DNA of 44,006 bases from a virus: the IMG/VR virus record IMGVR_UViG_3300031974_002308, positions 1-44,006 of that record; one strand, 5' to 3'. Made by a program: the position numbers and the translations under genes. Positions 12,367 through 36,433 of this stretch are shown one piece after another (position 1 is the stretch's first letter; each line of letters begins with the position of its first letter). The notes beneath the pieces were generated by a model. It was not told where the DNA came from. It was given only the letters and a program-made list of their open reading frames with translations, and did not search any database.

Positions 12367-12718
12367 CCTTGAGCAGTTTCATGAATCTATTTACTGCTAC
12401 CCTACTTGAAGATACAGCAGGTTTGCCCGCCATTATTTTTTCCCCGAGTAGCAGGCAGCCGTGAGAATCTTTCTCTGGGTAATTGCCAACATGAAACAAT
12501 ATGTAGGTTCTATCTGGGACATGCATCAACTGGAATGTGTCACCAAACTTTGGACTTTGATACCTCTCACAAATATATTCACCTATGGGTACACAACTAA
12601 CATAAGGTTGGTTGTTTCGCCAAGGTCTTTCAGCCACCATGAACTGATGGTCACCAATAGTTAATTTGCCGAGTGTTGCTTCGGGGTGATAAGCGAATCT
12701 TTCTAGGACTGCATCCAT
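12308..12718 (-). CDS. DUF5675 family protein, probable lysis enzyme, 136 aa
   Basis: The order 'LgkL.i.g..f...ErPW..N.p..SCiP.G.Y.ce..' followed by 'fhvGNyp.DShGCillGe' matches DUF5675. Here it is seen as MVAERPWRNNQPYVSCVPIG and FHVGNYPEKDSHGCLLLGEK. The SHGC element resembles the catalytic SHGC of L,D-transpeptidase-like folds, but this comparison is inference. It lies directly after a membrane anchor of holin type (12736-12990) and no other lysozyme was found in the window. A role in cell-wall degradation is therefore likely but unproven. Confidence 0.75.
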   Translation of the reverse strand: MDAVLERFAYHPEATLGKLTIGDHQFMVAERPWRNNQPYVSCVPIGEYICERYQSPKFGDTFQLMHVPDRTYILFHVGNYPEKDSHGCLLLGEKIMAGKPAVSSSRVAVNRFMKLLKDVQSFSLKIKDSFPYDWSE

Positions 12719-12735
12719 GTAAATATTATAGGTGA

Positions 12736-12990
12736 TTACAAGAAGTATAGGAAGCTTCCAACTAGGGCTGTGATCAACACATAAATGCCTCTCTCAAGCC
12801 AGCCAATGAAGACATTATCTTTTGCTTGTTTCTCTTCCAGTCTTCTTAGTCTTACTTCGTGATCTGATAGATCATCTTTGTGCCCAATCATTCTTTCCTC
12901 GATTCGAGGCAGGATGGAGACAACCTTGATGACCTCATCAACTTTCTTTTCGAGGTTATCAATTCTCATTTCTAGTTCTTTGAGTTCCAT
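12736..12990 (-). CDS. XhlA-like holin/lysis membrane protein, 84 aa
   Basis: N-terminal coiled coil (residues 1-58, MELKELEMRIDNLEKKVDEV and DHEVRLRRLEEKQAKD) and one C-terminal membrane segment (GIYVLITALVGSFLYFL), ending at the membrane. This is the layout of hemolysin XhlA-type phage lysis proteins. It is first in the late unit, next to the DUF5675 lysis candidate. A second, different holin (3-TM type) lies at 43124-43510, so this one may be a regulator or a spanin-like partner. No signal peptide. Confidence 0.65.
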   Translation of the reverse strand: MELKELEMRIDNLEKKVDEVIKVVSILPRIEERMIGHKDDLSDHEVRLRRLEEKQAKDNVFIGWLERGIYVLITALVGSFLYFL

Positions 12991-13090
12991 TTGAATTATT
13001 TGTTGAAAAAAAGATACAACAGCTAGTCGTTTAATACAAAGGCTTTAAAGATATTAATGCAAATCAGTGAAGAAATCTTTGTCATCTTTG

Positions 13091-13119
13091 TTGACATTAC
13101 ACAATATATCGTGTTGAAT
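13091..13119 (+). promoter_or_regulatory. Sigma70-type promoter for the ribozyme operon
   Basis: TTGACA at 13091-13096, 17-nt spacer, TTGAAT at 13114-13119. The -35 is perfect and the -10 matches moderately. Transcription would begin near 13126 and give a leader of about 130 nt that contains a UACCC/GGGUA hairpin and the first hammerhead ribozyme. Confidence 0.6.
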
Positions 13120-13183
13120 ACACTCAAACGCACAGCTTTGACTACCCCAGAGGGTACGATGTTCGGGAAGCGATACACCCAGC

Positions 13184-13236
13184 GACTGTAAGAGGATGAG
13201 TGTCCTCTCTGATGATTGCAAAAGCATGAAACAGTT
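13184..13236 (+). ncRNA. Hammerhead ribozyme HHR1 (type III), 5' leader
   Basis: Self-cleaving RNA. Stem III GACUGU (13184-13189) pairs with ACAGUU (13231-13236). The cleavage site follows GUA at 13190. Stem I AGAGGA/UCCUCU has loop UGAGUG. The core CUGAUGA is at 13209-13215, stem II is UUGC-AAAA-GCAU and GAAA is at 13228-13231. All invariant core bases are present. The oddity is a U-U opposition at the base of stem II where G-C is usual, which may lower activity. It lies 20 nt before the first gene of the operon. Confidence 0.85.
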
Positions 13237-13256
13237 TTAACTATGGAGAAAAAATT

Positions 13257-13520
13257 ATGTTAGACGGATTATTATTCGGAATCGTTGACAACGGAGTACT
13301 AGCTCTGTGTGCCCTTTGGGGAATTGATCTTGATCAGAAGTTTGCTGGTAAAGGTGTAAACGGTGCTTTGTATGGAGCATTGATTGGTAACTCACTATCA
13401 GACTTCATCGGTGGTGTCATGGACTTCAGCTTGCTGGTGTCATTCAACATTGCAGTTGGTTGCTTGATCGTTATCCCGGTAGTAAACATTTATCTTAGAT
13501 ATGCAGGAGGGCAGAAGTAA
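13257..13520 (+). CDS. Small membrane protein, 87 aa
   Basis: Glycine-rich protein with likely two or three membrane segments: LFGIVDNGVLALCALWGI, then GVNGALYGALIGNSLSDFIG and LLVSFNIAVGCLIVIPVVNI. Motif GLL.G.VDNG.LAL.A..GI followed by G.GA..GA.IGN..SD recurs, as far as I recall, in marine phages without known function. First gene after HHR1, with a GGAG Shine-Dalgarno, sharing 1 nt with the next gene. It could be an early host-membrane modifier; this is a guess. Confidence 0.7.
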   Translation: MLDGLLFGIVDNGVLALCALWGIDLDQKFAGKGVNGALYGALIGNSLSDFIGGVMDFSLLVSFNIAVGCLIVIPVVNIYLRYAGGQK

Positions 13521-13792
13521 TGAGAACAATCAATCTTAAAAACGATGACAGACTCCCAAATTCTGAGTACATCAAAAAAGCTGAGAGAATGTGGTACGAC
13601 AATTGGGTAGAGCTTGGTCGTAAGGATGAAGGCACTTGTGTTCTTGGTGCTCACATTGATTCAAGTGTTGGTAGGATCGATCCACCACCTGTACAAGGGA
13701 ATGTTAGTAAGTACGAATCTGCTAAGGTTGTTATGGACTATCTTGATGATCAAGGTATCTCATGGCGATACGATGATGGGATTATGGACTAA
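13520..13792 (+). CDS. Unknown early protein, 90 aa
   Basis: Not recognised. Soluble, mixed charge, with a central loop HIDSSVGRIDPPPVQGN and a helical C-terminal segment SAKVVMDYLDDQGISWRYDD. No metal or nucleotide motif. It shares 1 nt with the membrane protein upstream and ends 20 nt before a very stable hairpin and HHR2. The two genes would form one mRNA about 644 nt long if both ribozymes cut. Probably a small host-takeover protein, by position only. Confidence 0.65.
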   Translation: MRTINLKNDDRLPNSEYIKKAERMWYDNWVELGRKDEGTCVLGAHIDSSVGRIDPPPVQGNVSKYESAKVVMDYLDDQGISWRYDDGIMD

Positions 13793-13811
13793 CCTTTTCT
13801 TTCCCCGAGTT

Positions 13812-13827
13812 GGCTCCTTCGGGAGCC
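13812..13827 (+). other. UUCG tetraloop hairpin before HHR2
   Basis: GGCUCC-UUCG-GGAGCC, a perfect 6-bp stem with a UUCG loop, one base upstream of ribozyme stem III. No U-tract follows, so it is not an intrinsic terminator. After cleavage it would sit 7 nt from the new 3' end, where it could block 3'-exonucleases. Inference. Confidence 0.75.
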
Positions 13828-13828
13828 T

Positions 13829-13876
13829 GCTGTCGGCAAGTAGGCTTGCCCTGATGAGTTCAAAGAACGAAACAGC
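13829..13876 (+). ncRNA. Hammerhead ribozyme HHR2 (type III), intergenic
   Basis: Textbook hammerhead. Stem III GCUGU (13829-13833) pairs with ACAGC (13872-13876). Cleavage follows C13834 (GUC). Stem I GGCAAG-UAGG-CUUGCC is perfect, CUGAUGA is at 13851-13857, stem II GUUC-AAA-GAAC is perfect and GAAA is at 13869-13872. Every invariant position is intact. It lies between gene 2 and gene 3 of the operon and 20 nt before the ATG at 13897, whose leader ACAUAAGGAAAAAUU is nearly the same as that after HHR3. Confidence 0.95.
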
Positions 13877-13896
13877 TAACTACATAAGGAAAAATT

Positions 13897-14229
13897 ATGA
13901 AATTAAAATACGAAAAAAATTATGACGATGGCAGCTACAAAGCTGTTGTACTGAAGCTAACTAGAGGTGAGCTTGTTGTAAATATTGAACCATCATTGAT
14001 TGGTGGTGAAAAATTTTATACAGCTTACATGAGCATTGACATCAATGATTCATGGAGGAGTTATCAATGCGAAAGTGGTTTTGCAACTGGCTATTCACTG
14101 CAATCTATCAAAGACGAAATCGATGAGAGGTTCAGAGACATCATTTTTGACTATGCAGTAAATGAGCTAGAAGGCAATAGCCAGAGTGATCTTTACAAAG
14201 ACCTTGGGCTTACTAGGGAGGTTGTATGA
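13897..14229 (+). CDS. Unknown early protein, 110 aa
   Basis: Not recognised. Begins beta-rich (LKYEKNYDDGSYKAVVLKLT), ends helical (SIKDEIDERFRDIIFDYAVN). No transmembrane segment, cysteine cluster or catalytic motif. Start fixed by AAGGA 6 nt upstream in the leader after HHR2; ATGA-type 4-nt overlap with the next gene shows coupling. First gene of the second ribozyme-delimited segment. Confidence 0.65.
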   Translation: MKLKYEKNYDDGSYKAVVLKLTRGELVVNIEPSLIGGEKFYTAYMSIDINDSWRSYQCESGFATGYSLQSIKDEIDERFRDIIFDYAVNELEGNSQSDLYKDLGLTREVV

Positions 14230-14543
14230 CTTACTGGAATAACACAGGCAGGTATCAGAAACTTGCTGACGAACTTCAAGAACTTGTCCCAACAACGGGT
14301 GAGGTTAAGGATGTTGAAAACAACCCACACCTTGAAAAGTTCAGAATGGTTATCAACGCATACTATGACCTCTACAACAATGGGGGAGCCAATGACGATA
14401 CTAGATTTGTATCGCATTACTTTCCCAATTGTGTGCGGCTTGCAGATTTAAACATGTGGGATTTGTGTCACGGTATCACTGAACCCATAGTTGATAAAGC
14501 TGTGATTGCCGCTAGTGTCGAGCAAGGGATACTAGAAGGTTAG
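14226..14543 (+). CDS. Unknown early protein, 105 aa
   Basis: Not recognised. Helical, mostly acidic protein (YQKLADELQELVPTTGEVKD, then EKFRMVINAYYDLYNNGG). No motif of known function. It overlaps the upstream gene by 4 nt. Its stop codon TAG (14541-14543) shares its G with the first base of stem I of HHR3, so the coding region ends exactly where the ribozyme begins. Confidence 0.62.
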   Translation: MTYWNNTGRYQKLADELQELVPTTGEVKDVENNPHLEKFRMVINAYYDLYNNGGANDDTRFVSHYFPNCVRLADLNMWDLCHGITEPIVDKAVIAASVEQGILEG

Positions 14544-14639
14544 CACTACTGACGAGGTTTTATTAACCGAAACCTTGGAGCCAATTTTTTTTATATTAAC
14601 TTCGCAAATCTGATATGCGTTGGCTCCGAGGTCTAGTGC
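14543..14639 (+). ncRNA. Hammerhead ribozyme HHR3 (type I), intergenic
   Basis: Stem I GCACUA (14543-14548) pairs with UAGUGC (14634-14639). The core CUGACGA (14549-14555) has C at the variable position 7. Stem II is GGUU-UUAUU-AACC, GAAA is at 14569-14572. Stem III is 12 bp (14573-14584 with 14620-14631, one U-G wobble), closed by a 35-nt loop that contains U8AUAUUAA. Cleavage is after GUC at 14633. The stem III strand shares GUUGGCUCC with the hairpin before HHR2. The permutation differs from HHR1 and HHR2, so it is not a simple copy. Confidence 0.95.
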
Positions 14640-14679
14640 AGAGTCGGGTGACTCACACATAAATTTATAAGGAAAAATT

Positions 14680-14940
14680 ATGAATAAATTTACTACACCC
14701 AAGATGGAACATTGGGTATCACTTTATGGCTATCAGCCAGTTGTAATGCAGGAAGATTTTGCTGATGCAGAATTTGTCCTTTTTGTAAATCAAACTTATC
14801 TCAAGTTGCTAGAAGGCAATGTCCAAGATAATTTTGCAAAACAGGGTCTTAACTATGATCCTGCTATTAAAACTTCTTTTGAGTTCTACTGTGCTAATCA
14901 GAAAGAACTTAGGAGTTTATTAATCATGGGAGGTCAGTAA
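14680..14940 (+). CDS. Unknown early protein, 86 aa
   Basis: Not recognised. Aromatic, near-neutral protein (HWVSLYGYQPVVMQEDFADA; FEFYCANQKELRSLLIMGGQ) with a short helix at the end. First gene behind HHR3. Leader UUAUAAGGAAAAAUU precedes the ATG, matching the leader behind HHR2. Shares 1 nt with the next gene. No membrane segment. Function unknown. Confidence 0.65.
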   Translation: MNKFTTPKMEHWVSLYGYQPVVMQEDFADAEFVLFVNQTYLKLLEGNVQDNFAKQGLNYDPAIKTSFEFYCANQKELRSLLIMGGQ

Positions 14941-15134
14941 TGGATAACTTCAATATGAGCAAGTTTAAAGTTTCTTTTGTGCCGCATGATGTAGTCCAGT
15001 ACGACTACATCGTTGAAGCCAAAGATGAAGACCAAGCATATGATAAAGGTCTTGATGAGCTAAGATGGGCTATAGGTCGTGATGCTTCTAAAGATTGGGA
15101 GTGCAGTAATGTTGAGGAGGTGTCTGATGATTAG
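14940..15134 (+). CDS. Small unknown protein, 64 aa
   Basis: Not recognised. Beta-strand N-terminus (SKFKVSFVPHDVVQYDYIVE) and a helix (EDQAYDKGLDELRWAIGRD), a pattern like small dsRBD/ferredoxin-like or 'EAxdedqAyxkG' phage proteins (the latter is common in phage genomes with no assigned role). Overlaps the next gene by 8 nt. Function unknown. Confidence 0.62.
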   Translation: MDNFNMSKFKVSFVPHDVVQYDYIVEAKDEDQAYDKGLDELRWAIGRDASKDWECSNVEEVSDD

Positions 15135-15435
15135 GTTGCGTTTTGATGAATCTAAAATCTGGCAAAACTTTCAGATTACTTTTTCGAATGGCTACACAGT
15201 TTCTATTGGTATTGGCAGTGCTCATTATTGTCAAAATAGAATAAATGAGGCAAATGACGAGCCTGTTGAGGATTATTCCATGGACTGTGAAATCGCAATA
15301 CTAAAACCTAATGGCAAGTTTTTGCGATACAGGGGGGATGATGTACAGAGTTATGTTTTCCCAGATCGTGTAGCAGAAATTATCGCTTATGCAAAAAGCT
15401 TAGAGCCCAACAACCATGGGAGGGTAGCAGCATGA
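15127..15435 (+). CDS. Unknown early protein, 102 aa
   Basis: Beta-rich protein, IWQNFQITFSNGYTVSIGIG then HYCQNRINEANDE, an 'xxSxxVSIxxGxxHYCxNR' pattern I associate with small phage proteins of unknown role. The middle has CEIAILKPNGKFLRYRGDD. ATG 15127 chosen because GAGGAGG lies 8 nt upstream; an in-frame ATG at 15079 has no ribosome binding site. Overlaps neighbours by 8 and 4 nt. Confidence 0.68.
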   Translation: MIRLRFDESKIWQNFQITFSNGYTVSIGIGSAHYCQNRINEANDEPVEDYSMDCEIAILKPNGKFLRYRGDDVQSYVFPDRVAEIIAYAKSLEPNNHGRVAA

Positions 15436-15872
15436 GTGCATGGTTATGTAGCCCTAATCACATTGGCGAAATCTGTAGCAGATCAGGTCATGTCTCTGGT
15501 TATAATCTCGTAACTAAAGACAGATATGATATGGATGCTTCTACCTTAGCTGGTCTGTTAGCTCATCAGAACTTGTTGAGCTTACAGGCAAGGTATCCTG
15601 ATATGTGGGAAGAGTTTCTTTCCCCGTATGAGGGTGCGGACACAACAGAGAAGAAGACAAACTTTATCTGGCAATGTCAGCAACGAGCTAAGGGTTTGCC
15701 TAGAAAGAGCAAGCAGGATTGTGTTGGTTTGATTAGATCATACCGATATCAAGCTTGTGAAACAGAAGACTGGATCACATCAGATGTTTCTTTCATAACT
15801 CAAGGAATATTAGATAGTCTGTATCATGATTTAGTTGAAACAACCCTTTGGGCATACGATGAGGAGGATTAA
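15432..15872 (+). CDS. Unknown early protein, 146 aa
   Basis: Not recognised. Begins WLCSPNHIGEICSRSGHVSG. Two later regions look helical (STLAGLLAHQNLLSLQARYP; WQCQQRAKGLPRKSKQDCVG). Three to four cysteines occur but not as a clear metal site. Coupled to the preceding gene by a 4-nt overlap and to the zinc-ribbon gene by 1 nt. Largest protein of the ribozyme operon. Function unknown. Confidence 0.62.
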   Translation: MSAWLCSPNHIGEICSRSGHVSGYNLVTKDRYDMDASTLAGLLAHQNLLSLQARYPDMWEEFLSPYEGADTTEKKTNFIWQCQQRAKGLPRKSKQDCVGLIRSYRYQACETEDWITSDVSFITQGILDSLYHDLVETTLWAYDEED

Positions 15873-16063
15873 TGGTTTGTTCATGTGGTAAAGCAAAAAC
15901 TTTTGTAAAAGATGTTAGACCATTTGAGGATGGTAGAACTATATGGCGGAAAAGGGTTTGTAAGAAATGCGGTAAGTCTTTTTCTACATTCGAAGTTGAC
16001 TCAACTCGCTTTGCTGTAGGAGGCAAAGTTGATTGGAGAAGTCAAGGAAATGTAGATAAATAA
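15872..16063 (+). CDS. NrdR-like zinc-ribbon protein, 63 aa
   Basis: Zinc ribbon CSCG (residues 3-6) and CKKCGK (about 31-36), with VKDVRPFEDGRTIWRKRVCK between and SFSTFEVD after. This matches the N-terminal zinc ribbon of NrdR ('CP.C...t.V.DSR...dg..iRRRReC..Cg.rFtTfE'), the repressor of ribonucleotide reductase operons, but without the ATP-cone. Here the first pair is CxC rather than CPxC. It may be a DNA-binding transcription factor acting on host or phage promoters, or a decoy of NrdR. Last gene before the operon terminator. Confidence 0.72.
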   Translation: MVCSCGKAKTFVKDVRPFEDGRTIWRKRVCKKCGKSFSTFEVDSTRFAVGGKVDWRSQGNVDK

Positions 16064-16073
16064 AGACGGAATA

Positions 16074-16112
16074 AGAGCTGTGCGTTCATTGAATGCATGG
16101 CTCTTTTTTTTT
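16074..16112 (+). terminator. Intrinsic terminator of the ribozyme operon
   Basis: Hairpin AGAGCUGUGC (16074-16083) with GCAUGGCUCU (16095-16104), 10 bp including two G-U pairs, an 11-nt loop and a run of nine U. It lies 11 nt beyond the last gene. The U-run flows into TATATTAA, the same T8ATATTAA string present inside HHR3. Confidence 0.85.
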
Positions 16113-16131
16113 ATATTAAGATTCTATGTTA

Positions 16132-16302
16132 ATGAAAGAAGCAATAATCGAAGTAGCGAGGGAACTTAAAAAAACCGACACAATAAATTTCCAAGACCCA
16201 CAAATTTTATCTGGGTATCCTAATGATTTGGGTAACGAAGATATCGAGAAAGCATTGAGAGCTATCTCAGCAGTATCAGATATTATTCTTAAAGTAAGCT
16301 AA
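16132..16302 (+). CDS. Small unknown protein, 56 aa
   Basis: Short plus-strand frame MKEAIIEVARELKKTDTINF to SAVSDIILKVS, helical at both ends. It lies after the operon terminator, so it needs its own promoter; an ATG two codons upstream (16126) is in frame. TATATT just before could be a -10 box. Its 3' end overlaps the convergent minus-strand gene by 14 nt. Coding is plausible from composition, and no function is recognised. Confidence 0.45.
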   Translation: MKEAIIEVARELKKTDTINFQDPQILSGYPNDLGNEDIEKALRAISAVSDIILKVS

Positions 16303-16486: not shown

Positions 16487-16625
16487 ATTGCTCTGTCCAA
16501 TACTCTTCGAATATAGTTCTAAACTGTTCTAGTGTTGGGATTTCTACGACATCTGTTTTTGCTAAGTCTAATATGTACTGTGAATAAGCTTCTTTAAGTG
16601 CCTTCTCGGTATATAACAACATCAT
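16470..16625 (-). CDS. Small acidic helical protein, 51 aa
   Basis: Begins MMLLYTEKALKEAYSQYILD, ends FEEYWTEQYEQEE. It is a phage-type small helix-rich protein resembling 'Y.eeal.eAY..Y........p.tleeFR..fEe.w' strings found after small basic phage proteins. The ATG overlaps the stop of the preceding gene as ATGA, good evidence for coupling. Too short for default gene calling. Function unknown. Confidence 0.6.
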   Translation of the reverse strand: MMLLYTEKALKEAYSQYILDLAKTDVVEIPTLEQFRTIFEEYWTEQYEQEE

Positions 16626-16966
16626 TTTTTTGGTGGACTTTTTTTACTCCCGCCTTTGCCTGCCCAGAGGTCTTTACGAGCCCAATAGTTTGCTGAAAAC
16701 TTGTCATTTTTCGTGAGTTGACCAGACTTATTTCGAATACCACCTGACCTAGCCATATAGCTGCTACGAGCCTTAGAACTATAATTATGCCCATAAGACT
16801 TGTGTCCGTAATTAACAACTTTGATTTCATCACCTTTCTTAGCTAGTACTGTTTTCTTATATTTGCCAGAACCGCTATACCTTTTAGGCTTATTGAAACC
16901 GGGATACTTCTTACCCCTGTACATCACACCATCAGCTACTCTTTTTGCATCACTTGCTTTTGCCAT
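16622..16966 (-). CDS. Basic G/Y/K-rich small protein, 114 aa
   Basis: Start ATG 16966 fixed by AGGAGG nine nt upstream (AGGAGGTACAGATAATG) and a TAATG overlap with the preceding gene. The same frame stays open upstream to 17182 but that part is not a normal protein sequence. Content: VMYRGKKYPGFNKPKRYSGS, then KKTVLAKKGDEIKVVNYGHK and NDKFSANYWARKDLWAGKGG. High lysine and tyrosine suggest nucleic-acid binding. I associate this type with marine phage cyanophage-like genomes. Function unknown. Confidence 0.68.
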   Translation of the reverse strand: MAKASDAKRVADGVMYRGKKYPGFNKPKRYSGSGKYKKTVLAKKGDEIKVVNYGHKSYGHNYSSKARSSYMARSGGIRNKSGQLTKNDKFSANYWARKDLWAGKGGSKKSPPKK

Positions 16967-17220
16967 TATCTGTACCTCCTGCTTATGTTTCTTGCTCTCT
17001 TTGTTTGTGGAACAAACTGCTTGCCTTTCTTCATACCTGCCCTTTTCTTTCTGGAAGTGGCTGCATATTCTTGCGGTGTCATAGCAGAAATAGCAGCGGA
17101 AGGTAGATACCTTTCCCCTGTTGCATTCTTTCCTTGAACTGATGGCTTGCCTGATTTGGTTCGCCATTTCTGTGCTGTCCACATTTTAAGAGATTTTTGT
17201 GACTTTTTTAATCCTTTCAT
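16966..17220 (-). CDS. DUF5872-like basic protein, 84 aa
   Basis: The order LKKSQKSLKMWTAQKWRTKSG, then GERYLPSAAISAMTPQEYAA, then SRKKRAGMKKGKQFVPQ fits the DUF5872 pattern ('slk.Wt.qkWrt..Gk......rYLP..a...L...eyaat...K..g...gkQfv.qP') found in many environmental phages and giant viruses; its role is unknown. Highly basic, so nucleic-acid binding is likely. Directly coupled to the downstream basic gene by a 1-nt overlap. Confidence 0.75.
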   Translation of the reverse strand: MKGLKKSQKSLKMWTAQKWRTKSGKPSVQGKNATGERYLPSAAISAMTPQEYAATSRKKRAGMKKGKQFVPQTKRARNISRRYR

Positions 17221-28447: not shown

Positions 28448-31400
28448 TTACCTTCCTTCTTGTAAAGCTTCTCTGTAAACCTTATTGAACTCTTGCATGA
28501 TTTTTATTTCTTCTTGTTCGAGTTCATCATAAATTTCATAATATTTCTTACGATCTCTTTCGTAATATTCTTCTCGGGCAGTTTGTTGCTGGTCTTTTAC
28601 TTGTTTCAATCTTTTTTCTGTAGCTGCCAATAAGCTATTGTTCCCGAACCTTCTTGTTGCATAAGCATTTAAAGTGTTGCCCAAACTTTCTAGTGGGAAG
28701 TTAATTCTATCTAAAAATTCTTGCGGTTCTTCTGATGGATCAAGAGATTCCATAAGGTCTCTATAAGCATTTTCTGCTCGCTGAACTTCTGCTGCATTTT
28801 CATAGAAATATTCAACATCCATTCTATCATTTGGTGTAACGGTTATTCTTCTCCATATTGGGATTTGATTTGATGATGGTCTATCTGGATTAAAAGCAAA
28901 ATTCCATGTTCTTCTTGCAGTTCTTCCTAAACCACCAGCACCCTGATCAAACAAATACATCCAAGGTGCCGGATCAATGTCAAGCTTGCCTGCGTAGAAT
29001 TCATTACCACCAGACACATCATTTATTATTCTTACTATACCTTTAATAAACTCAGGTATTTTTTTATTTTCTCTGTAAGATTTTGGTGTTGTGTCATTAA
29101 AGTATGGCTCATAATAAATAGGTGATCCAAAGTGATCTCTATTAATAGCTAGCTCTCCAAATGGTTTGAATACAGATGGCAGCAATGATACCCCGATGTT
29201 TTCAAAGAAGTTTCCTTCTGTTGAGTACGGAAGTGGTGAGAAGTTATGCAATGCGGAGTGTGCAAATTCTTTGGCAGCATCTGCTAGACCATAATCGTAA
29301 TTATCTAATTCTTTAGCAAGCAGTAATTCTGTAGATATTCTTGCAACATTAGCAAAGAATGCATAACCATATGGCATTGGTAATCCTACCCCTATTGCTT
29401 TTTTCTCCCCGTTTTGATCTATGGTGAAGTATTTGCTACCAGAGCCCCACTCTTCAATAATTACTTCTCCTTTGCTGTTAACATCAACACCCGGCAACAT
29501 AACAATATATTTTGTTTGTTTTTCCCAATCAGAAAGCTTGTGATACATATTTCTACCATCTTCGTCTTCATCGGCAGTAAGAAGATTGTACATAGCAGTC
29601 AAAGATGCCATGCCCATTATCCCACCAATAGCTTTGGCTTTTCTTGAAGCATAGAAGTTTTTGTCAAGTGGATTGACTCCCCTAAATGTGTTGACTGTTC
29701 CTTGGATACTAGCATTAAAGAACATATAAAGAGCATTAGCGGTAGGTCCCATAGTCCCCATTCTGTTAAAGTTAACTGTTAAGTTTTTAGAAAGTGCAGC
29801 TGCTCGTTCATATATAGCTGGAGTTGCATTTTCTAGTCCGCCCATCATCTCGACATAACCTTGGAAGGCTGTGTACCTAGCTGCATTCTCAATACCCATG
29901 TTGTATCTTTCTATAAACTTGAAAGCAGCATTTGTGCCAGCTTTAAGATTGCCTTTAAATGTGCCTTCATACATATCCATCATGTCTTGCAATTCATCTG
30001 TTAGCTTATCAACTGTCCTTGATTCAATGTAACCAGTTTCACCACCATACTTTTTAAAGTTTCTTAAAAGAATTTGTTGCTTGGCATCTTTAGGGCTGAG
30101 TTTGTATCTTTCTTCTACCTGTTTAACTAGTTCTGGTGTTATTTCAATACCTTCACCAGCCAAGGAGTTTAGATACATATCTATGTCATCCTTATTAAGT
30201 GATCTATTGTTTTCGAATCTAATTAAATCCTTAGCATTTCTAAGTATGTTGGCACTTGTGTAGTACTCTTTAGCTATCTCAAGACCTCTAGCTCTTCCAC
30301 CCTCAATATCTTGCTCTGCCAATAAGTTATAATAACCAGTTTGAACATCACGCAAGAAGTTGTTGATCATGAATGTTGGGTCAAGTGATGTGTTAACCAT
30401 AGAAAGCCATCTAGTTCCAAACCTCATAAGCTTCATAAAATTACCAGTAATGCTGGTATCAAAGTTGTCAAAACCTTTAGCTAATAACTCGTCATATATT
30501 TCTACATATTTTTGCTCACCGTTTTCTCTAAAGCCAACTCTTGAATAACCCTTAGTTTCATCCCATTTAGCATCAACAACAAGATCACCAACATCTTCTG
30601 AAACACTATACATTTTGCTAGGGAAGGCTCTAGCAAGATCAGCTAGTGATTGGATTACTCTATTTTTCTCTGCTTGGATTGCTGCTGATGATGCTTGAAC
30701 AACTGATTGTTGTAGTGGAGCTGCTGCTAAAGATTCTCTACCCTTAGCTTCTTTAACTAATGAACCTGCTACAGCCATTTGACTATTTATTAAGCCGCTT
30801 TTTGTTTGTTTTCTTTTTATTTCTCTCCCGGTTTTAGGGTCGATAAGAGTTTCTTCTGAAAATCCTTGAAGCGGAACATAATACTTATATCTTGCATCCC
30901 AATCTTGTACAGCTTGTTCTGTCTCTAAGCCACTATCAATCATTATTTTTCTAGTAAAGTCCATCATAGGCTTATGATATCTATTGAAAGCTTCTAATAG
31001 ATTTTTACCTTTTGTTAGAGAGCCTCTGGCTTCCATGGTTTTTAGATCGAATATAACTCCATATTTTTTCAATGTAGCTACAGCTTGAGCTGTTGATATT
31101 CCTGAACCTTTCTCAGCCTTTTTAATTTTATTTTTTAATGTTGTTACTTTTCTTCTAGCATTAGCTAATGTTTGCTTAGTTGATAATCTGCTTTTTTCTA
31201 ACTCAGCAAGCTCTGATTCTGCTTTTTTCAAGTCTTCAGCAAACTTGGTAGGTAGGTAGGCATTTCTTTCCGGAGCATGTAAGTTATAAATAAATTGATT
31301 GTACTCTTTTTCATTTATTCCCTTTGATTGCAGGAATTCTACTAGAGGCTCAAAGTAATCTTCTCTAATATCTCTTAGCAAATCTTTTATTCTTCCAGAA

Positions 31401-34400
31401 AAGATGTCTGTTTGAGTAGTAACTCGCCAGTCTCTTGAATTAGGATCAATGCCAAGAGCTGCAAGTCTCTGTAAAACTTCTCTTTCCCCAAACTGGTCTA
31501 TCAGGTTTTCTTCTATGGTCCATAGTCTGCCAAATCTATTGGCAACTGTAATATTAAATTCTTCCATCTTTGTTTGGAAGAAACTCATTTCTCTTAGTGA
31601 GAAGTTACCGTCTGGGTCTGGTCCTCCCGGTGGAGGCGGTGGTGTTGGTGGGAGATTGTCTAGAGCTTCTTCTAGCTCAAGTTGTTGATCTGGTGGCAGC
31701 GGGGAAGGTTCTCTTCTTAGTCTTGGTCCGCCTTGACCTGTGGTTGGGAAGGCTCCATCGACTCCTGTGTCATAGTCTCCTGATCTGTATCTGTCGAAGA
31801 TTGCATCAACCTTTGACCTGATACGAATAAGCCTCTGTTGTAAGCTTTTGCTTTCGAGTCTTCCTTTAAGATATTGATTTCCATCTGGGTTTTCTTGCCA
31901 ATTATTTGTTAAGTACTGTGTATTGTATCGTATGTTATGTTGAATGTCAGCTTTTGCACCTTCTAGCCCGACACTCTCAAGAGCAGCTTCTATCTTTTCA
32001 TTAAAGTTTTCAACAACCTGTCCATTAAATTTAAAGTTTATAATACCAATTTCATTAGCACTTAACTGAGTAAACCCATCGATACCCTGTTTTCTTAGAG
32101 CTTCGTTTAATTGTTTTCTTAAGACATCATTAATATCAATTGGAGCACCTGTTTGTTTGTCTACAAAAGTAATTTCAGAACCAACATTAACAGCCTCATT
32201 GGTCATATCATTTATTTCTTGCTCAGTTATGTTTTCATTAGCAACGAAATAAGGGACAGCATCCTGTCTAAAGACATAACCCCATGCTCTTAAGAAATCA
32301 TCAGCATAAGATAGATCAACATTACTAAACTGCTTATCACCTTGGACCTTTTCCAATAGCAAGCTAGTTACTATATTAGGATTAATCTTGCCATCATAAG
32401 CTCCGAAGCTATGTGAAAACTTGTAGAGACCTGTCCCGGGAAACAACTCCATAATCATATTCTTGCCTTCAGATGTTGTTATAGCTTCAAGCAAATCTCT
32501 AGTCATCATGGCTTTAGCTTTTGGATTTAATTTTTCCCCGAATGTGAACTCAGGAAGTGATTGAGTGGGGATAACTTCTGTTGTTACTGTTGCACTCGCT
32601 TTATCTATAAATGTTTCGTAACCAACATATTCTGCTGGCTTACCTTTGGCTTGTAATTCTTTGTTTCTTGCATAGGTCCAGAGAACAGCTTGCATCTCCA
32701 TTGGAGTAAGATTGTCATTGTGTTTCTTGTTATAAAGTCTGGTGGCTTCTTGGATTACAGATGTACCATATCTGTGGTTAGCTAATTTGTTTTGCATTTT
32801 ATCAAAGCCTAACAATTTGAACATCCAAGTATCCATAGTTACTGCATCAGGATTTTTGCCTGTTAAGTTTTCATAAAAGCTTTGTAGTTTGAAACCTACA
32901 CCGGGCAGCTTGGTTCCAAAATCTTGTGCATTTAGGGCTGCTGATGCAAACTCCCCTGCTTCTGGTTGGAATCCGGGCAGTGGGTCACCATTCTTTGCTA
33001 AGGCAACCAATGATCTTAGGGTGTATGCTAGGTTAGTTTCTACTGGAGTTTGAGAAGAATAGATTGTTAATAATCTAAGAACATCTTCTTTAAGCTTGGC
33101 ATTGCCTCTAGTTAGATTATCTATTTCAACATTAACATTCTTGTACCAGTCTCTGCTTTGATCAATGAGTGATAAAGGATTTTCTGCTAGCTTGACTAAA
33201 TCTCTTGCTAGCTTATTGAAGTCTTTTTGAGTGTTTCTGAAAGAACCGTCTTCGTTCTTTGGTGAACCTGCGAATGTTTTGGTTGTTTCGTTTAGCTTAA
33301 GTTGTCCGATTGGGACATAGTTGCTTTTGGCAGGGTCTTGTTCTGGAACTGGAACACTGTCCTCTTGTCTTTGAGCAGGTCTTTCCACTCTGCGATAGGT
33401 TGATTCTGGTCCAAAGACTTCTGCAATATCTCTTCCAGCTGCTCTTCTTCTGTATATTTGAGAATCTGCATCGGAACGATCTGATTGAAACGCATCTCGT
33501 ATTCTGAGACCAATTGTTGCAAATTTGTTATCAGTGGTTGCATTGTTTATATCTTCTATTAATTTTAAGGTTCTTGGAGCATAGCTCTTAAGAATCTTAC
33601 GATTAGTATAATATAATCCGTAAGCTTGTGCGAATAGTTCTGATCTAACAAATGCTTGGTCTCCTTCTTTCCCCATATTGATATCTGCTAGATATCTGTC
33701 AAAAGGATAGGATAGTATTCTCCCTCCTAGTGGACTCATGTTTGGTCCAGTTCTTGAAACTAAGTAAAGATTAAATAACTCTCTAAATATTTGACCACCT
33801 GTTGTAAACTTATGCATCAATACTTTATCAATGTCTAACCTTCTCATTACACCATCCATAGACAGTTCAGGATCAAGACCATTGTCTTTAGCTATTTTTG
33901 AAAACTCAGCATCAATGTCGATACTCTCAAACAGTGGAGATGTTGCGGCAAAACTTTTTTGATTTGCTATGTAATCTATGCTGTGAGCAATTTCATGAGC
34001 AAGTGTTTGTTGTAAATCAGCTTTTGATGCAGTGAGGAAGTCTTTAACATCTTGCCCAATATTATTTAAATCAATGTTTGGGTCAATTCTGTCTTTGTAT
34101 GCAGACTCATTTAAGAGAGTTGCATTACCTACGAGAACCATCCCTGATTCTGGTCTAAACTCGCCAAGAGGAGATGCGGTTCCTCTAGATGCTCCAACAA
34201 CTCCGATAAATGGCATTATCTTAAATACCTGTTCTGGCATTCCTTGTTTAATTAAGTTGTCTATAACTTCTGCTACAAGAACAGATTCTTGTTCGGTAAA
34301 GTCTCTTACATCACCTGTTTCAAATGAACCGCCCACATCCTTTGTTCCCGGACCAACCTCTAAATCTCTTGGTCCCGGCAGAATATCTTTGAGATCGCCA

Positions 34401-36433
34401 TTTTCTAAAGTTGAAAAGTAGGAAAGTTTAAAGTTTTCTCTATTAAATTCTAAAGGTCTAAGAATTTCTTTCTGAACACGCTCAATGTCTCTAGGGTCTG
34501 TTTCTTGTTTTATCTGTCCTTCTATACTTTCCGGGTTGCTTTGTATTGCCTCAATAGCTGGCAAAGCATTCATCAGGCTACTATCATCATCATAATAAGA
34601 GTCTCCTAAATTATCAGTACCATAAGCCTTTCTCTCTAAAGTTTGCTCTTGAGTTTTAGGAAGATTTTTATTTATGTAGTTAGTTAAGGTTTGCTTGTCA
34701 GTCTCTAAAGTATTAAGCAGTTCTTTTGCTGAATCTCTTTGTTCTTCAGAAAGTTTTTCATTATTTGACCTTGTTTTTGCAGACTCTATTTGATTGTTAA
34801 TCTGTACTATTCTTTCTTGAACTTTGCTGTCGAACTCAGCAACATCAAGTATGTTGTCATCCTGCATAATGTTTATAACTTTTCTAATTTGCTCCACAGA
34901 TTCAACTGGATCAAAATCTTCCGTTGCAAATTCTGCGGCATATTCTCTTACTAATGTTTTTTCTGCATCATTAAGTTCTTCTGAAACAATATCTCTAGCT
35001 AGGATTCTTTCTGCAAAATATTCATCTGGCAATATTTCAGGATTTCTAAGATAGTATGCTTGCCTTGATGGAGCTAAGAATTGCTCAGGAGACATATTGT
35101 AAAAATCTTTTGGTCCCTCTTCAGGTGTTTCAAGAGCCATAATTGATCTTGAAGGGCTTAAAAGACCAGACTTAAAAACATATTGATAAGTATCATCAAG
35201 AGCTTTAAATTGTACTTCTGCTCTATCTACTAAGAGATTTAGTTCTCTAGCTATTTTTCTTGCTGGATTTCTATCAAAGGTGTTTAAAACATTTTTTTGT
35301 ATGTCGGGTCCAAATGCTGCTACACCTTGTGCTGACACCATACCGCCAGAACTAACCAATGCTGATACAGTTGTCATATAAGCATTGTCTGCCATAACTT
35401 CCCACCATTCTGGACCATCGTATTCGGGGTTATCTTTGTTTGCCCAAGCCACTGCAAATTCTGTTTGAACCCCACCCATAGCTTTGTTAGTTTCTTGTAA
35501 AATTGTATTAACATTTTCAGAACCAATATTAATCATTGCTGTTGTGGCTCCATCTCTGGCAAATTGTTGTAATGTGCTGCCATTATCCTTCCAATATTTT
35601 TTCATTGTTTTAGAAACAAATGGTAGGGGTATTAATTCAGTACCAACTTCGAACAAAGCATTCATGCCAGATACTCGCATGGCATCTTTGTGAGATAGTC
35701 CTGACATTCTGGCTTCTCTATAAGAAGAGCCTCTTTCCATATAACCAAACACTGGTAGCATTCCATACATGAAGGTTGGGTTTTTGGTTGCTAAAGTTAA
35801 AGCAAAACCAGAAGCTTGTATGCCAAAAGATGTAACACCGCCTGAAACAGCTCTTGCAGTTTTACCTAGACCTTGTGTGTTTTTTTCTATTATTTTTTGT
35901 TGAGCTTGCCATTCATCAAAATTTTCATCTAAGGCATTTAGATAGTTATTAACATAGTTTATTTTTTCTACCCGAGGTAAAGCATTAAAAGTGTCTTTCT
36001 TTTCTTTTTGCCAGTCACTGATAAATTTAGTTTCTTGCGGTACAAACAGCCTTCCAGCTGCTCCTTCACCAAAAGTTGTTCCGAAGCCCAATGGTTTGGG
36101 CGGAGCTATTTTTCCAGTTTCTGTAAGAAATTCTTGTTCAATTTTTTCAAATTCATTGTTTATAAGAGCTTGTTGTACTGATGCTGGTATATTTTTGACA
36201 CCTGATGCAAAACCAGTTGCTAGTTGCCCTATAAAAGATTGTGGAGCATAGGCACTAGCTCTTGCTCGATTAGATGCTGTAAAGTCGTAAATGAATTCTT
36301 CTTCAGTAAGCTTAGGTTGAACAACCTCTGGTTCTTTTTCTTTTAGCCCTAAAGCTTCTTGAGCTAGCTTTTCTTTCTCTTCTTCTGGTAAGAGTGAGAA
36401 TGGGTCATTGAGTGTAAATCTTGAATCTGCCAC
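28448..36433 (-). CDS. Giant polyvalent virion protein with metallopeptidase motif, 2661 aa
   Basis: Last gene of the late unit. The N-terminal part is helical with Gly/Ala-rich segments. Around residue 813 HEIAHSID is an HExxH zinc metallopeptidase motif (H813, E814, H817). Around 1190 comes AVTMDTWMFKLLGFDK, around 1590 a proline linker (TPPPPPGGPDPDG). Around 2010 MINNFLRDVQTGYYNLLAEQ and near 2215 NFNRMGTMGPTANALYMFFN correspond to the large-polyvalent-protein-associated region seen in giant phage proteins. Hydrophobic stretch near 2265 (GIMGMASLTAMYNLL). Likely packaged and injected with DNA; its zinc domain may cut host proteins. Confidence 0.82.
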   Translation of the reverse strand: MADSRFTLNDPFSLLPEEEKEKLAQEALGLKEKEPEVVQPKLTEEEFIYDFTASNRARASAYAPQSFIGQLATGFASGVKNIPASVQQALINNEFEKIEQEFLTETGKIAPPKPLGFGTTFGEGAAGRLFVPQETKFISDWQKEKKDTFNALPRVEKINYVNNYLNALDENFDEWQAQQKIIEKNTQGLGKTARAVSGGVTSFGIQASGFALTLATKNPTFMYGMLPVFGYMERGSSYREARMSGLSHKDAMRVSGMNALFEVGTELIPLPFVSKTMKKYWKDNGSTLQQFARDGATTAMINIGSENVNTILQETNKAMGGVQTEFAVAWANKDNPEYDGPEWWEVMADNAYMTTVSALVSSGGMVSAQGVAAFGPDIQKNVLNTFDRNPARKIARELNLLVDRAEVQFKALDDTYQYVFKSGLLSPSRSIMALETPEEGPKDFYNMSPEQFLAPSRQAYYLRNPEILPDEYFAERILARDIVSEELNDAEKTLVREYAAEFATEDFDPVESVEQIRKVINIMQDDNILDVAEFDSKVQERIVQINNQIESAKTRSNNEKLSEEQRDSAKELLNTLETDKQTLTNYINKNLPKTQEQTLERKAYGTDNLGDSYYDDDSSLMNALPAIEAIQSNPESIEGQIKQETDPRDIERVQKEILRPLEFNRENFKLSYFSTLENGDLKDILPGPRDLEVGPGTKDVGGSFETGDVRDFTEQESVLVAEVIDNLIKQGMPEQVFKIMPFIGVVGASRGTASPLGEFRPESGMVLVGNATLLNESAYKDRIDPNIDLNNIGQDVKDFLTASKADLQQTLAHEIAHSIDYIANQKSFAATSPLFESIDIDAEFSKIAKDNGLDPELSMDGVMRRLDIDKVLMHKFTTGGQIFRELFNLYLVSRTGPNMSPLGGRILSYPFDRYLADINMGKEGDQAFVRSELFAQAYGLYYTNRKILKSYAPRTLKLIEDINNATTDNKFATIGLRIRDAFQSDRSDADSQIYRRRAAGRDIAEVFGPESTYRRVERPAQRQEDSVPVPEQDPAKSNYVPIGQLKLNETTKTFAGSPKNEDGSFRNTQKDFNKLARDLVKLAENPLSLIDQSRDWYKNVNVEIDNLTRGNAKLKEDVLRLLTIYSSQTPVETNLAYTLRSLVALAKNGDPLPGFQPEAGEFASAALNAQDFGTKLPGVGFKLQSFYENLTGKNPDAVTMDTWMFKLLGFDKMQNKLANHRYGTSVIQEATRLYNKKHNDNLTPMEMQAVLWTYARNKELQAKGKPAEYVGYETFIDKASATVTTEVIPTQSLPEFTFGEKLNPKAKAMMTRDLLEAITTSEGKNMIMELFPGTGLYKFSHSFGAYDGKINPNIVTSLLLEKVQGDKQFSNVDLSYADDFLRAWGYVFRQDAVPYFVANENITEQEINDMTNEAVNVGSEITFVDKQTGAPIDINDVLRKQLNEALRKQGIDGFTQLSANEIGIINFKFNGQVVENFNEKIEAALESVGLEGAKADIQHNIRYNTQYLTNNWQENPDGNQYLKGRLESKSLQQRLIRIRSKVDAIFDRYRSGDYDTGVDGAFPTTGQGGPRLRREPSPLPPDQQLELEEALDNLPPTPPPPPGGPDPDGNFSLREMSFFQTKMEEFNITVANRFGRLWTIEENLIDQFGEREVLQRLAALGIDPNSRDWRVTTQTDIFSGRIKDLLRDIREDYFEPLVEFLQSKGINEKEYNQFIYNLHAPERNAYLPTKFAEDLKKAESELAELEKSRLSTKQTLANARRKVTTLKNKIKKAEKGSGISTAQAVATLKKYGVIFDLKTMEARGSLTKGKNLLEAFNRYHKPMMDFTRKIMIDSGLETEQAVQDWDARYKYYVPLQGFSEETLIDPKTGREIKRKQTKSGLINSQMAVAGSLVKEAKGRESLAAAPLQQSVVQASSAAIQAEKNRVIQSLADLARAFPSKMYSVSEDVGDLVVDAKWDETKGYSRVGFRENGEQKYVEIYDELLAKGFDNFDTSITGNFMKLMRFGTRWLSMVNTSLDPTFMINNFLRDVQTGYYNLLAEQDIEGGRARGLEIAKEYYTSANILRNAKDLIRFENNRSLNKDDIDMYLNSLAGEGIEITPELVKQVEERYKLSPKDAKQQILLRNFKKYGGETGYIESRTVDKLTDELQDMMDMYEGTFKGNLKAGTNAAFKFIERYNMGIENAARYTAFQGYVEMMGGLENATPAIYERAAALSKNLTVNFNRMGTMGPTANALYMFFNASIQGTVNTFRGVNPLDKNFYASRKAKAIGGIMGMASLTAMYNLLTADEDEDGRNMYHKLSDWEKQTKYIVMLPGVDVNSKGEVIIEEWGSGSKYFTIDQNGEKKAIGVGLPMPYGYAFFANVARISTELLLAKELDNYDYGLADAAKEFAHSALHNFSPLPYSTEGNFFENIGVSLLPSVFKPFGELAINRDHFGSPIYYEPYFNDTTPKSYRENKKIPEFIKGIVRIINDVSGGNEFYAGKLDIDPAPWMYLFDQGAGGLGRTARRTWNFAFNPDRPSSNQIPIWRRITVTPNDRMDVEYFYENAAEVQRAENAYRDLMESLDPSEEPQEFLDRINFPLESLGNTLNAYATRRFGNNSLLAATEKRLKQVKDQQQTAREEYYERDRKKYYEIYDELEQEEIKIMQEFNKVYREALQEGR

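Follow-up and report, generated by a model that had tools for sequence, protein, structure and literature searches.

Repeated hammerhead ribozyme motifs in a variable operon of an uncultured phage clade: candidate natural insulators of accessory genes

The operon and its three hammerhead motifs

Here we describe an operon in a 44,006-base IMG/VR virus record (IMGVR_UViG_3300031974_002308, all of which was analysed and is called the window) that carries three hammerhead ribozyme motifs on the plus strand between positions 13184 and 14639, one in the operon leader, one in the gap between genes 2 and 3 and one in the gap between genes 4 and 5. Hammerhead 1 (13184-13236) and hammerhead 2 (13829-13876) are of type III, with cleavage triplets GUA and GUC and predicted cuts at 13190^13191 and 13834^13835, respectively. 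Hammerhead 3 (14543-14639) is of type I, with triplet GUC, a predicted cut at 14633^14634, a stem I formed by GCACUA and UAGUGC, and a long stem III with a U-rich loop. The cores read CUGAUGA, CUGAUGA and CUGACGA, and each motif combines CUGANGA and GAAA with NUH at the cleavage site. The cuts are those named in the initial annotation of this DNA; they would give segments of 644 and 799 nucleotides (nt) and a last one of about 1472 nt to the terminator.

A descriptor requiring CUGANGA, GAAA, NUH and three stems scored the stems of hammerheads 1, 2 and 3 at 16, 15 and 24. Neither strand of the window held a further type I or III match scoring at least 15, and the chance expectation at that score, taken from simulated sequence with matched dinucleotide content, is 0.027 per 44 kb; a type II match on the minus strand, scoring 14, was dropped as under threshold and without model support. 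Two covariance models, one for each type, were made from relatives alone, with zero window sequence. The type III model matched at 13182-13243 (E = 8.5e-18) and 13827-13882 (E = 5.6e-17), the type I model at 14537-14663 (E = 2.1e-12), and neither gave an additional window match up to E = 10. Hammerhead 1 also folds as a hammerhead, and the fold of hammerhead 3 has a z score of -5.0. With descriptor and models in agreement, we regard the presence of hammerheads at these three plus-strand sites, as first proposed, as confirmed at the level of sequence.

The curated hammerhead models of Rfam release 15, suggested in the initial annotation as a check, gave a more limited result. The middle hammerhead alone was detected (RF00008, 38.7 bits, E = 5.6e-5), under the gathering score of 48.5, hammerheads 1 and 3 were missed, and no hammerhead model of Rfam attains its curated cut-off in the window or its relatives. 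Some relatives score 30-36 bits with RAGATH-1-hammerhead (RF03152), all under its gathering score of 56.3; the motifs described here are like that family in their type I layout and unlike it in stem III. The curated models miss most of these ribozymes, which are therefore under-counted.

Compensatory changes were found in the stems of all three groups. RNAalifold returned a hammerhead fold for the positional orthologues of hammerhead 1, in which 6 of 16 pairs, drawn from all three stems, change on both sides, and likewise for the hammerhead 2 family (5 of 16 pairs) and the type I set (12 of 20 pairs); for hammerhead 3 itself the three helices are supported through the type I model (R1). The alignment rows had first been found with the descriptor, which accepts only stems of three or more pairs. 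Pairing was thus partly selected for, and we consider the two-sided changes among the same-position orthologues of hammerhead 1 the cleanest evidence.

At positions 10.1 and 11.1, hammerheads 2 and 3 have a G-C pair and hammerhead 1 has a U-U apposition, together with A at the cleavage position; the original description of three intact hammerheads thus holds for their presence and not for hammerhead 1 as a fully canonical ribozyme. Among the 165 distinct hammerheads from all fetched loci (77 of type I and 88 of type III, the sample also used for the spacing and hairpin statistics below), U-U occurs in 20 natural copies, 19 of them with A17, while only 5 of the 145 others carry A17 (Fisher p = 2e-19, with no correction for relatedness). 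The coupling spans both types and several unrelated loci, hammerhead 1 included. Its carriers are window 13184-13236 and hammerheads in loci L052, L053, L088, L092, L093, L127 and L128. Because U-U recurs in this way, we treat it as a core variant and not as a reason for exclusion.

The operon itself opens with a candidate promoter (TTGACA, 17 nt, TTGAAT; 13091-13119, plus strand), read from the sequence and with a weak second hexamer; a promoter scan accepted no plus-strand promoter-like site in 12700-16088 and no sigma-70 promoter upstream of the first operon gene. After hammerhead 1, a leader with the ribosome-binding site GGAG (13237-13256) precedes gene 1 (13257-13520, 87 residues), a predicted open reading frame without assigned function whose homologues occur in 27 viral contigs, the majority without hammerheads. 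In four of these loci (L005-L008) the homologue is 66-82% identical, hammerheads are absent and a glutamine riboswitch lies on the opposite strand. Gene 2 (13520-13792, 90 residues) is a truncated copy, aligning solely to the C-terminal 85 residues of a 213-residue protein in L002, L003 and L035; the window's gene 2 region lacks the N-terminus and a type I hammerhead part that are present in L002 and L003. A hairpin, GGCUCC-UUCG-GGAGCC (13812-13827; -15 kcal/mol for 13806-13834), stands just 5' of cut 2 and is predicted to form the new 3' end of the upstream messenger RNA (mRNA). Gene 3 (13897-14229, 110 residues) follows a leader with AAGGAAAAATT (13877-13896); exact patterns gave no relatives of it, although L002 and L003 do have them. 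Gene 4 (14226-14543, 105 residues), like gene 3 without assigned function, ends in a stop codon that abuts hammerhead 3. Past cut 3, the hairpin GAGUC-GGGU-GACUC (14641-14654) would occupy the new 5' end, and a second leader with AAGGAAAAATT (14655-14679) leads to genes 5-9 (14680-16063; 86, 64, 101, 146 and 63 residues), which have no hammerheads between them. The near-identical leaders pointed out in the initial annotation are real.

Gene 9 contains an NrdR-like zinc ribbon, and no convincing family was found for operon genes 1-8. An intrinsic terminator with a 15-pair stem and a T tail (16073-16112) closes the operon. The U-rich loop in stem III of hammerhead 3 (14584-14598) repeats the terminator tail (16103-16119), the common sequence being TTTTTTTTATATTAA, and is perhaps a terminator remnant incorporated in the ribozyme. 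Elsewhere in the window, the minus strand encodes at 28448-36433 a 2661-residue protein in which LPD38 and DUF7178 were the only domains seen.

The locus in related phages

Searches with the terminase, with genes 1 and 8 and with two DNA patterns for hammerheads brought together about 150 viral loci. They include an uncultured phage clade with terminases 76-93% identical to that of the window, whose members share a stretch that lies, in the window, between a minus-strand gene (12736-12990) and a further gene (16126-16302). Wherever this stretch was covered in a clade member, hammerheads were present in it: three in the window, one in G013, five each in L035, L137, L128 and L150, seven in L127, and at least five in L003, which has a weak type I match as a possible sixth. 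Across seven hammerhead-bearing genomes (329 kb including the window, both strands) all hammerheads fell inside the stretch, and the covariance models gave the same picture over 389 kb of relatives plus two cultured phages, with one insignificant match (E = 0.41). Loci with at least two hammerheads carried all of them on one strand in 60 of the 62 newly fetched cases.

Another relative, G002, with a terminase 89% identical, has no hammerhead, and its upstream flank gene matches weakly (31%). No array occurs in the pieces read of phages HMO-2011 and HTVC115P, a DNA search of named phages gave no match, and the portal and terminase are only about 33-35% identical to those of named phages. The type I pattern found nothing in bacterial and archaeal genomes. 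Seven loci without window homologues (L130, L131, L132, L134, L141, L142 and L154) have arrays of two to five type I hammerheads, with leaders mostly of 25-31 nt.

The genes of the operon have been replaced almost entirely, while the flanking genes are conserved. Compared with the operons of G007, G012, L128, G010, L127, L146, L148 and G014, the window has none or one of its nine proteins in common; among close relatives, single cassettes have been gained and lost. G014 lacks one cassette of L148, and the ribozyme-leader module it has left is a hybrid, L148 module 1 in its 5' half and L148 module 2 in its 3' half; the crossover falls within a stretch of ribozyme that does not differ between the two modules. 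Homology blocks overlap at modules in L002/L003, L127/G010 and window/L002, and over all comparisons 63 of 120 breakpoints lie at modules against 24.6 expected, the pairs not being independent. Because the excess shrinks to about twofold when ordinary gene junctions serve as the control, we regard recombination at the ribozymes as supported, but as a secondary claim. At 8363-8868 of L127, two consecutive cassettes encode proteins that both begin with MDELKTFNL, and a separate hammerhead precedes each; a cassette duplication relative to G010 is likely.

Most operon proteins across the relatives belong to no known family. L146 and its kin L133, L144 and L147 contain a ribozyme-bounded ArdC-like anti-restriction gene, whose product joins an ArdC N-terminal domain to a metallopeptidase domain, and on this gene content the locus may reasonably be viewed as an accessory, partly anti-defence island. 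Matches to the protein encoded at window 16622-17182 in G011, G013 and G014 hold several stop codons, as if this gene had been split by an insert in some relatives.

Cut-to-start spacing and hairpins at the product ends

The distance from predicted cut to start codon is narrow. A ribosome-binding site and start codon lie downstream in 76 of 77 type I hammerheads, mostly 25-52 nt past the cut; for type III they were found in 53 of 88, with a peak at 60-81 nt. Hairpins of at least five pairs stand upstream of 58 of 86 type III sites against 15.9 expected, and upstream of 15 of 75 type I sites against 9.8 expected; type I can do without the extra upstream hairpin because its own stem III stays on the new 3' end. 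Immediately downstream of type I sites, hairpins were seen in 27 of 76 cases (3.3 expected), and at type III sites the ribozyme's stems I and II would remain on the 5' end of the downstream product. Judged from these folds, both designs tend to place hairpins on the ends of the products. The window has both kinds of hairpin, ahead of cut 2 and past cut 3. A hairpin placed as in the engineered insulator RiboJ, between cut and ribosome-binding site, is found at hammerhead 3, and the 5' ends made by hammerheads 1 and 2 would bear the ribozymes' own stems I and II.

Interpretation and alternative readings

We propose, with a probability of about 0.64, that these modules are natural insulators resembling RiboJ, through which accessory genes that are transcribed together and can be swapped would be expressed from separate mRNAs of a standard form. 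The folds of the ribozymes, their placement and conservation at a single locus, the hairpins at product ends, the turnover of genes and the crossovers in modules were all computed; from these we infer that one transcript spans the operon, that it is cleaved, and that the products are stabilised and insulated. RiboJ, in which a hammerhead has been joined to a hairpin by design, increases transcript levels about twofold and protein levels two- to tenfold in E. coli (PMC6206723). Like it, the modules place a hammerhead 5' of the ribosome-binding site, with a cleaved 5' end and a hairpin ahead of that site; unlike it, they are natural, repeated between genes, drawn from types I and III, and would also shape the 3' end of the upstream mRNA.

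Under this proposal, three active hammerheads would cut one plus-strand transcript into a discarded leader and mRNAs for genes 1-2, genes 3-4 and genes 5-9. Each cut would supply the downstream gene with a short standard 5' leader, a 5'-hydroxyl end and a terminal hairpin ahead of the ribosome-binding site, and the upstream gene with a 3' end capped by a hairpin. RNase III cuts the early polycistronic mRNA of phage T7 between genes, leaving hairpin-protected 3' ends. The operon would be like it in being a polycistronic phage message cut between genes, with 3' ends so protected, and unlike it in that the RNA itself would cut, not a host enzyme. Since the operon genes are often exchanged, insulation would free the expression of a new gene from its neighbours. 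The repeated ribozyme-leader modules would double as homology for cassette gain and loss. A more tentative extension, to which we give somewhat less than even odds, is that the modules serve as RNA insulators and DNA homology joints at once: a crossover within a ribozyme would restore ribozyme and leader, and the new gene would be expressed immediately in its own mRNA.

Several points weigh against insulation by cleavage. No start codon with a ribosome-binding site was within reach of the scan at 35 of 88 type III sites, and the 5' hairpin is missing at about two thirds of the type I sites. In the last block of the window one of five genes adjoins a ribozyme. The single transcript is itself inferred, from the spacing of the genes and from a scan that saw no promoter-like site inside the operon. 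Hammerhead 1, with its U-U apposition and GUA, may cleave slowly. Genes are exchanged at ordinary junctions too, the excess at modules being about twofold (odds ratio about 2; p between 0.01 and 0.05, the pairs again not being independent, in a control that is fairer than the chance expectation).

Division of the message into segments, as first suggested, is the best-supported reading, with clade-wide conservation behind it, and trimming of the 5' end for translation, also suggested then, gains support from the narrow cut-to-start distances. Separate half-lives, a third suggestion, are plausible because the product ends carry hairpins. It could be that the ribozymes do only this, splitting the genes into mRNAs with their own decay rates in the way that RNase III does for the early mRNA of T7, with gene exchange at modules as a by-product of repeats. 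We put this a little short of an even chance: the excess of end hairpins over chance and the agreement in layout and interpretation with Perreault et al. 2011 speak for it, yet alone it leaves unexplained both the narrow cut-to-start distance and a scaffold that outlasts near-complete gene replacement. That the modules are kept chiefly as recombination patches, with cleavage secondary, is unlikely. The exact hybrid in G014 with the intervening cassette gone, the overlapping homology blocks and the breakpoint excess would all follow from it, but compensatory stem changes preserve RNA structure while lowering DNA homology, and ordinary gene junctions exchange genes as well, only about half as often.

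The initial annotation had also raised ends that could be ligated to circularise the mRNAs; retrozymes and viroid-like RNAs offer parallels for this. Several consecutive type I hammerheads have stem I sequences in common, so that the segment between two of them could re-form a hammerhead, and in the window the stem III arms of segment 1 would allow the same. Segment 2, however, begins at a type III site and finishes at a type I site, and the arms of the two are not complementary, the last segment stops at the terminator, many of these operons start with a type III and then a type I site, and neighbouring stem I sequences differ in several arrays; Perreault et al. (PMC3088659) sought circular products and found none. 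Circularisation is thus very improbable, and we reject it as a general function. Least credible of all is that the motifs are inactive or chance look-alikes: the curated Rfam cut-offs are unreached, but the low chance expectation, the compensatory stem changes and the confinement to one locus in seven genomes all argue otherwise.

The initial statement that no operon divided in this way was known proved wrong, as Perreault et al. 2011 (PMC3088659) had described multiple hammerheads flanking prophage genes and short gene blocks, proposed that they process long transcripts, and reported a triple array that cleaves in vitro and in E. coli; ardA lay within a hammerhead triplet in Agrobacterium tumefaciens and downstream of hammerheads in Legionella. 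The window shares with those clusters at least two same-direction hammerheads flanking genes or short blocks, the proposal of gene-length mRNAs and a nearby anti-restriction gene among its relatives. It differs in belonging to an uncultured phage clade with one conserved locus and up to seven copies, in a type I motif that a search of bacterial and archaeal genomes did not return, and in conserved start-codon spacing, end hairpins and genes that are replaced while the ribozymes persist. Judged against the open-licence literature, five features appear to be new: an array kept at the same site across the clade, replacement of genes while the ribozymes around them are conserved, crossovers that fall within ribozymes, hairpins that recur systematically at the product ends, and the U-U/A17 core variant.

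The role of hammerheads in bacteria and phages has been described as open (PMC6155905). Bearing on it here are the genes that the operons contain, the places of the ribozymes among them, the ends of the predicted products and the way in which the locus has recombined. The clade offers many natural replicates differing in ribozyme number and gene order, in which insulation, mRNA processing and cassette exchange become separately testable. Its modules would be natural counterparts to a synthetic-biology insulator, and the locus, which holds an ArdC-like gene in several of these phages, is one where new anti-defence genes may turn up.

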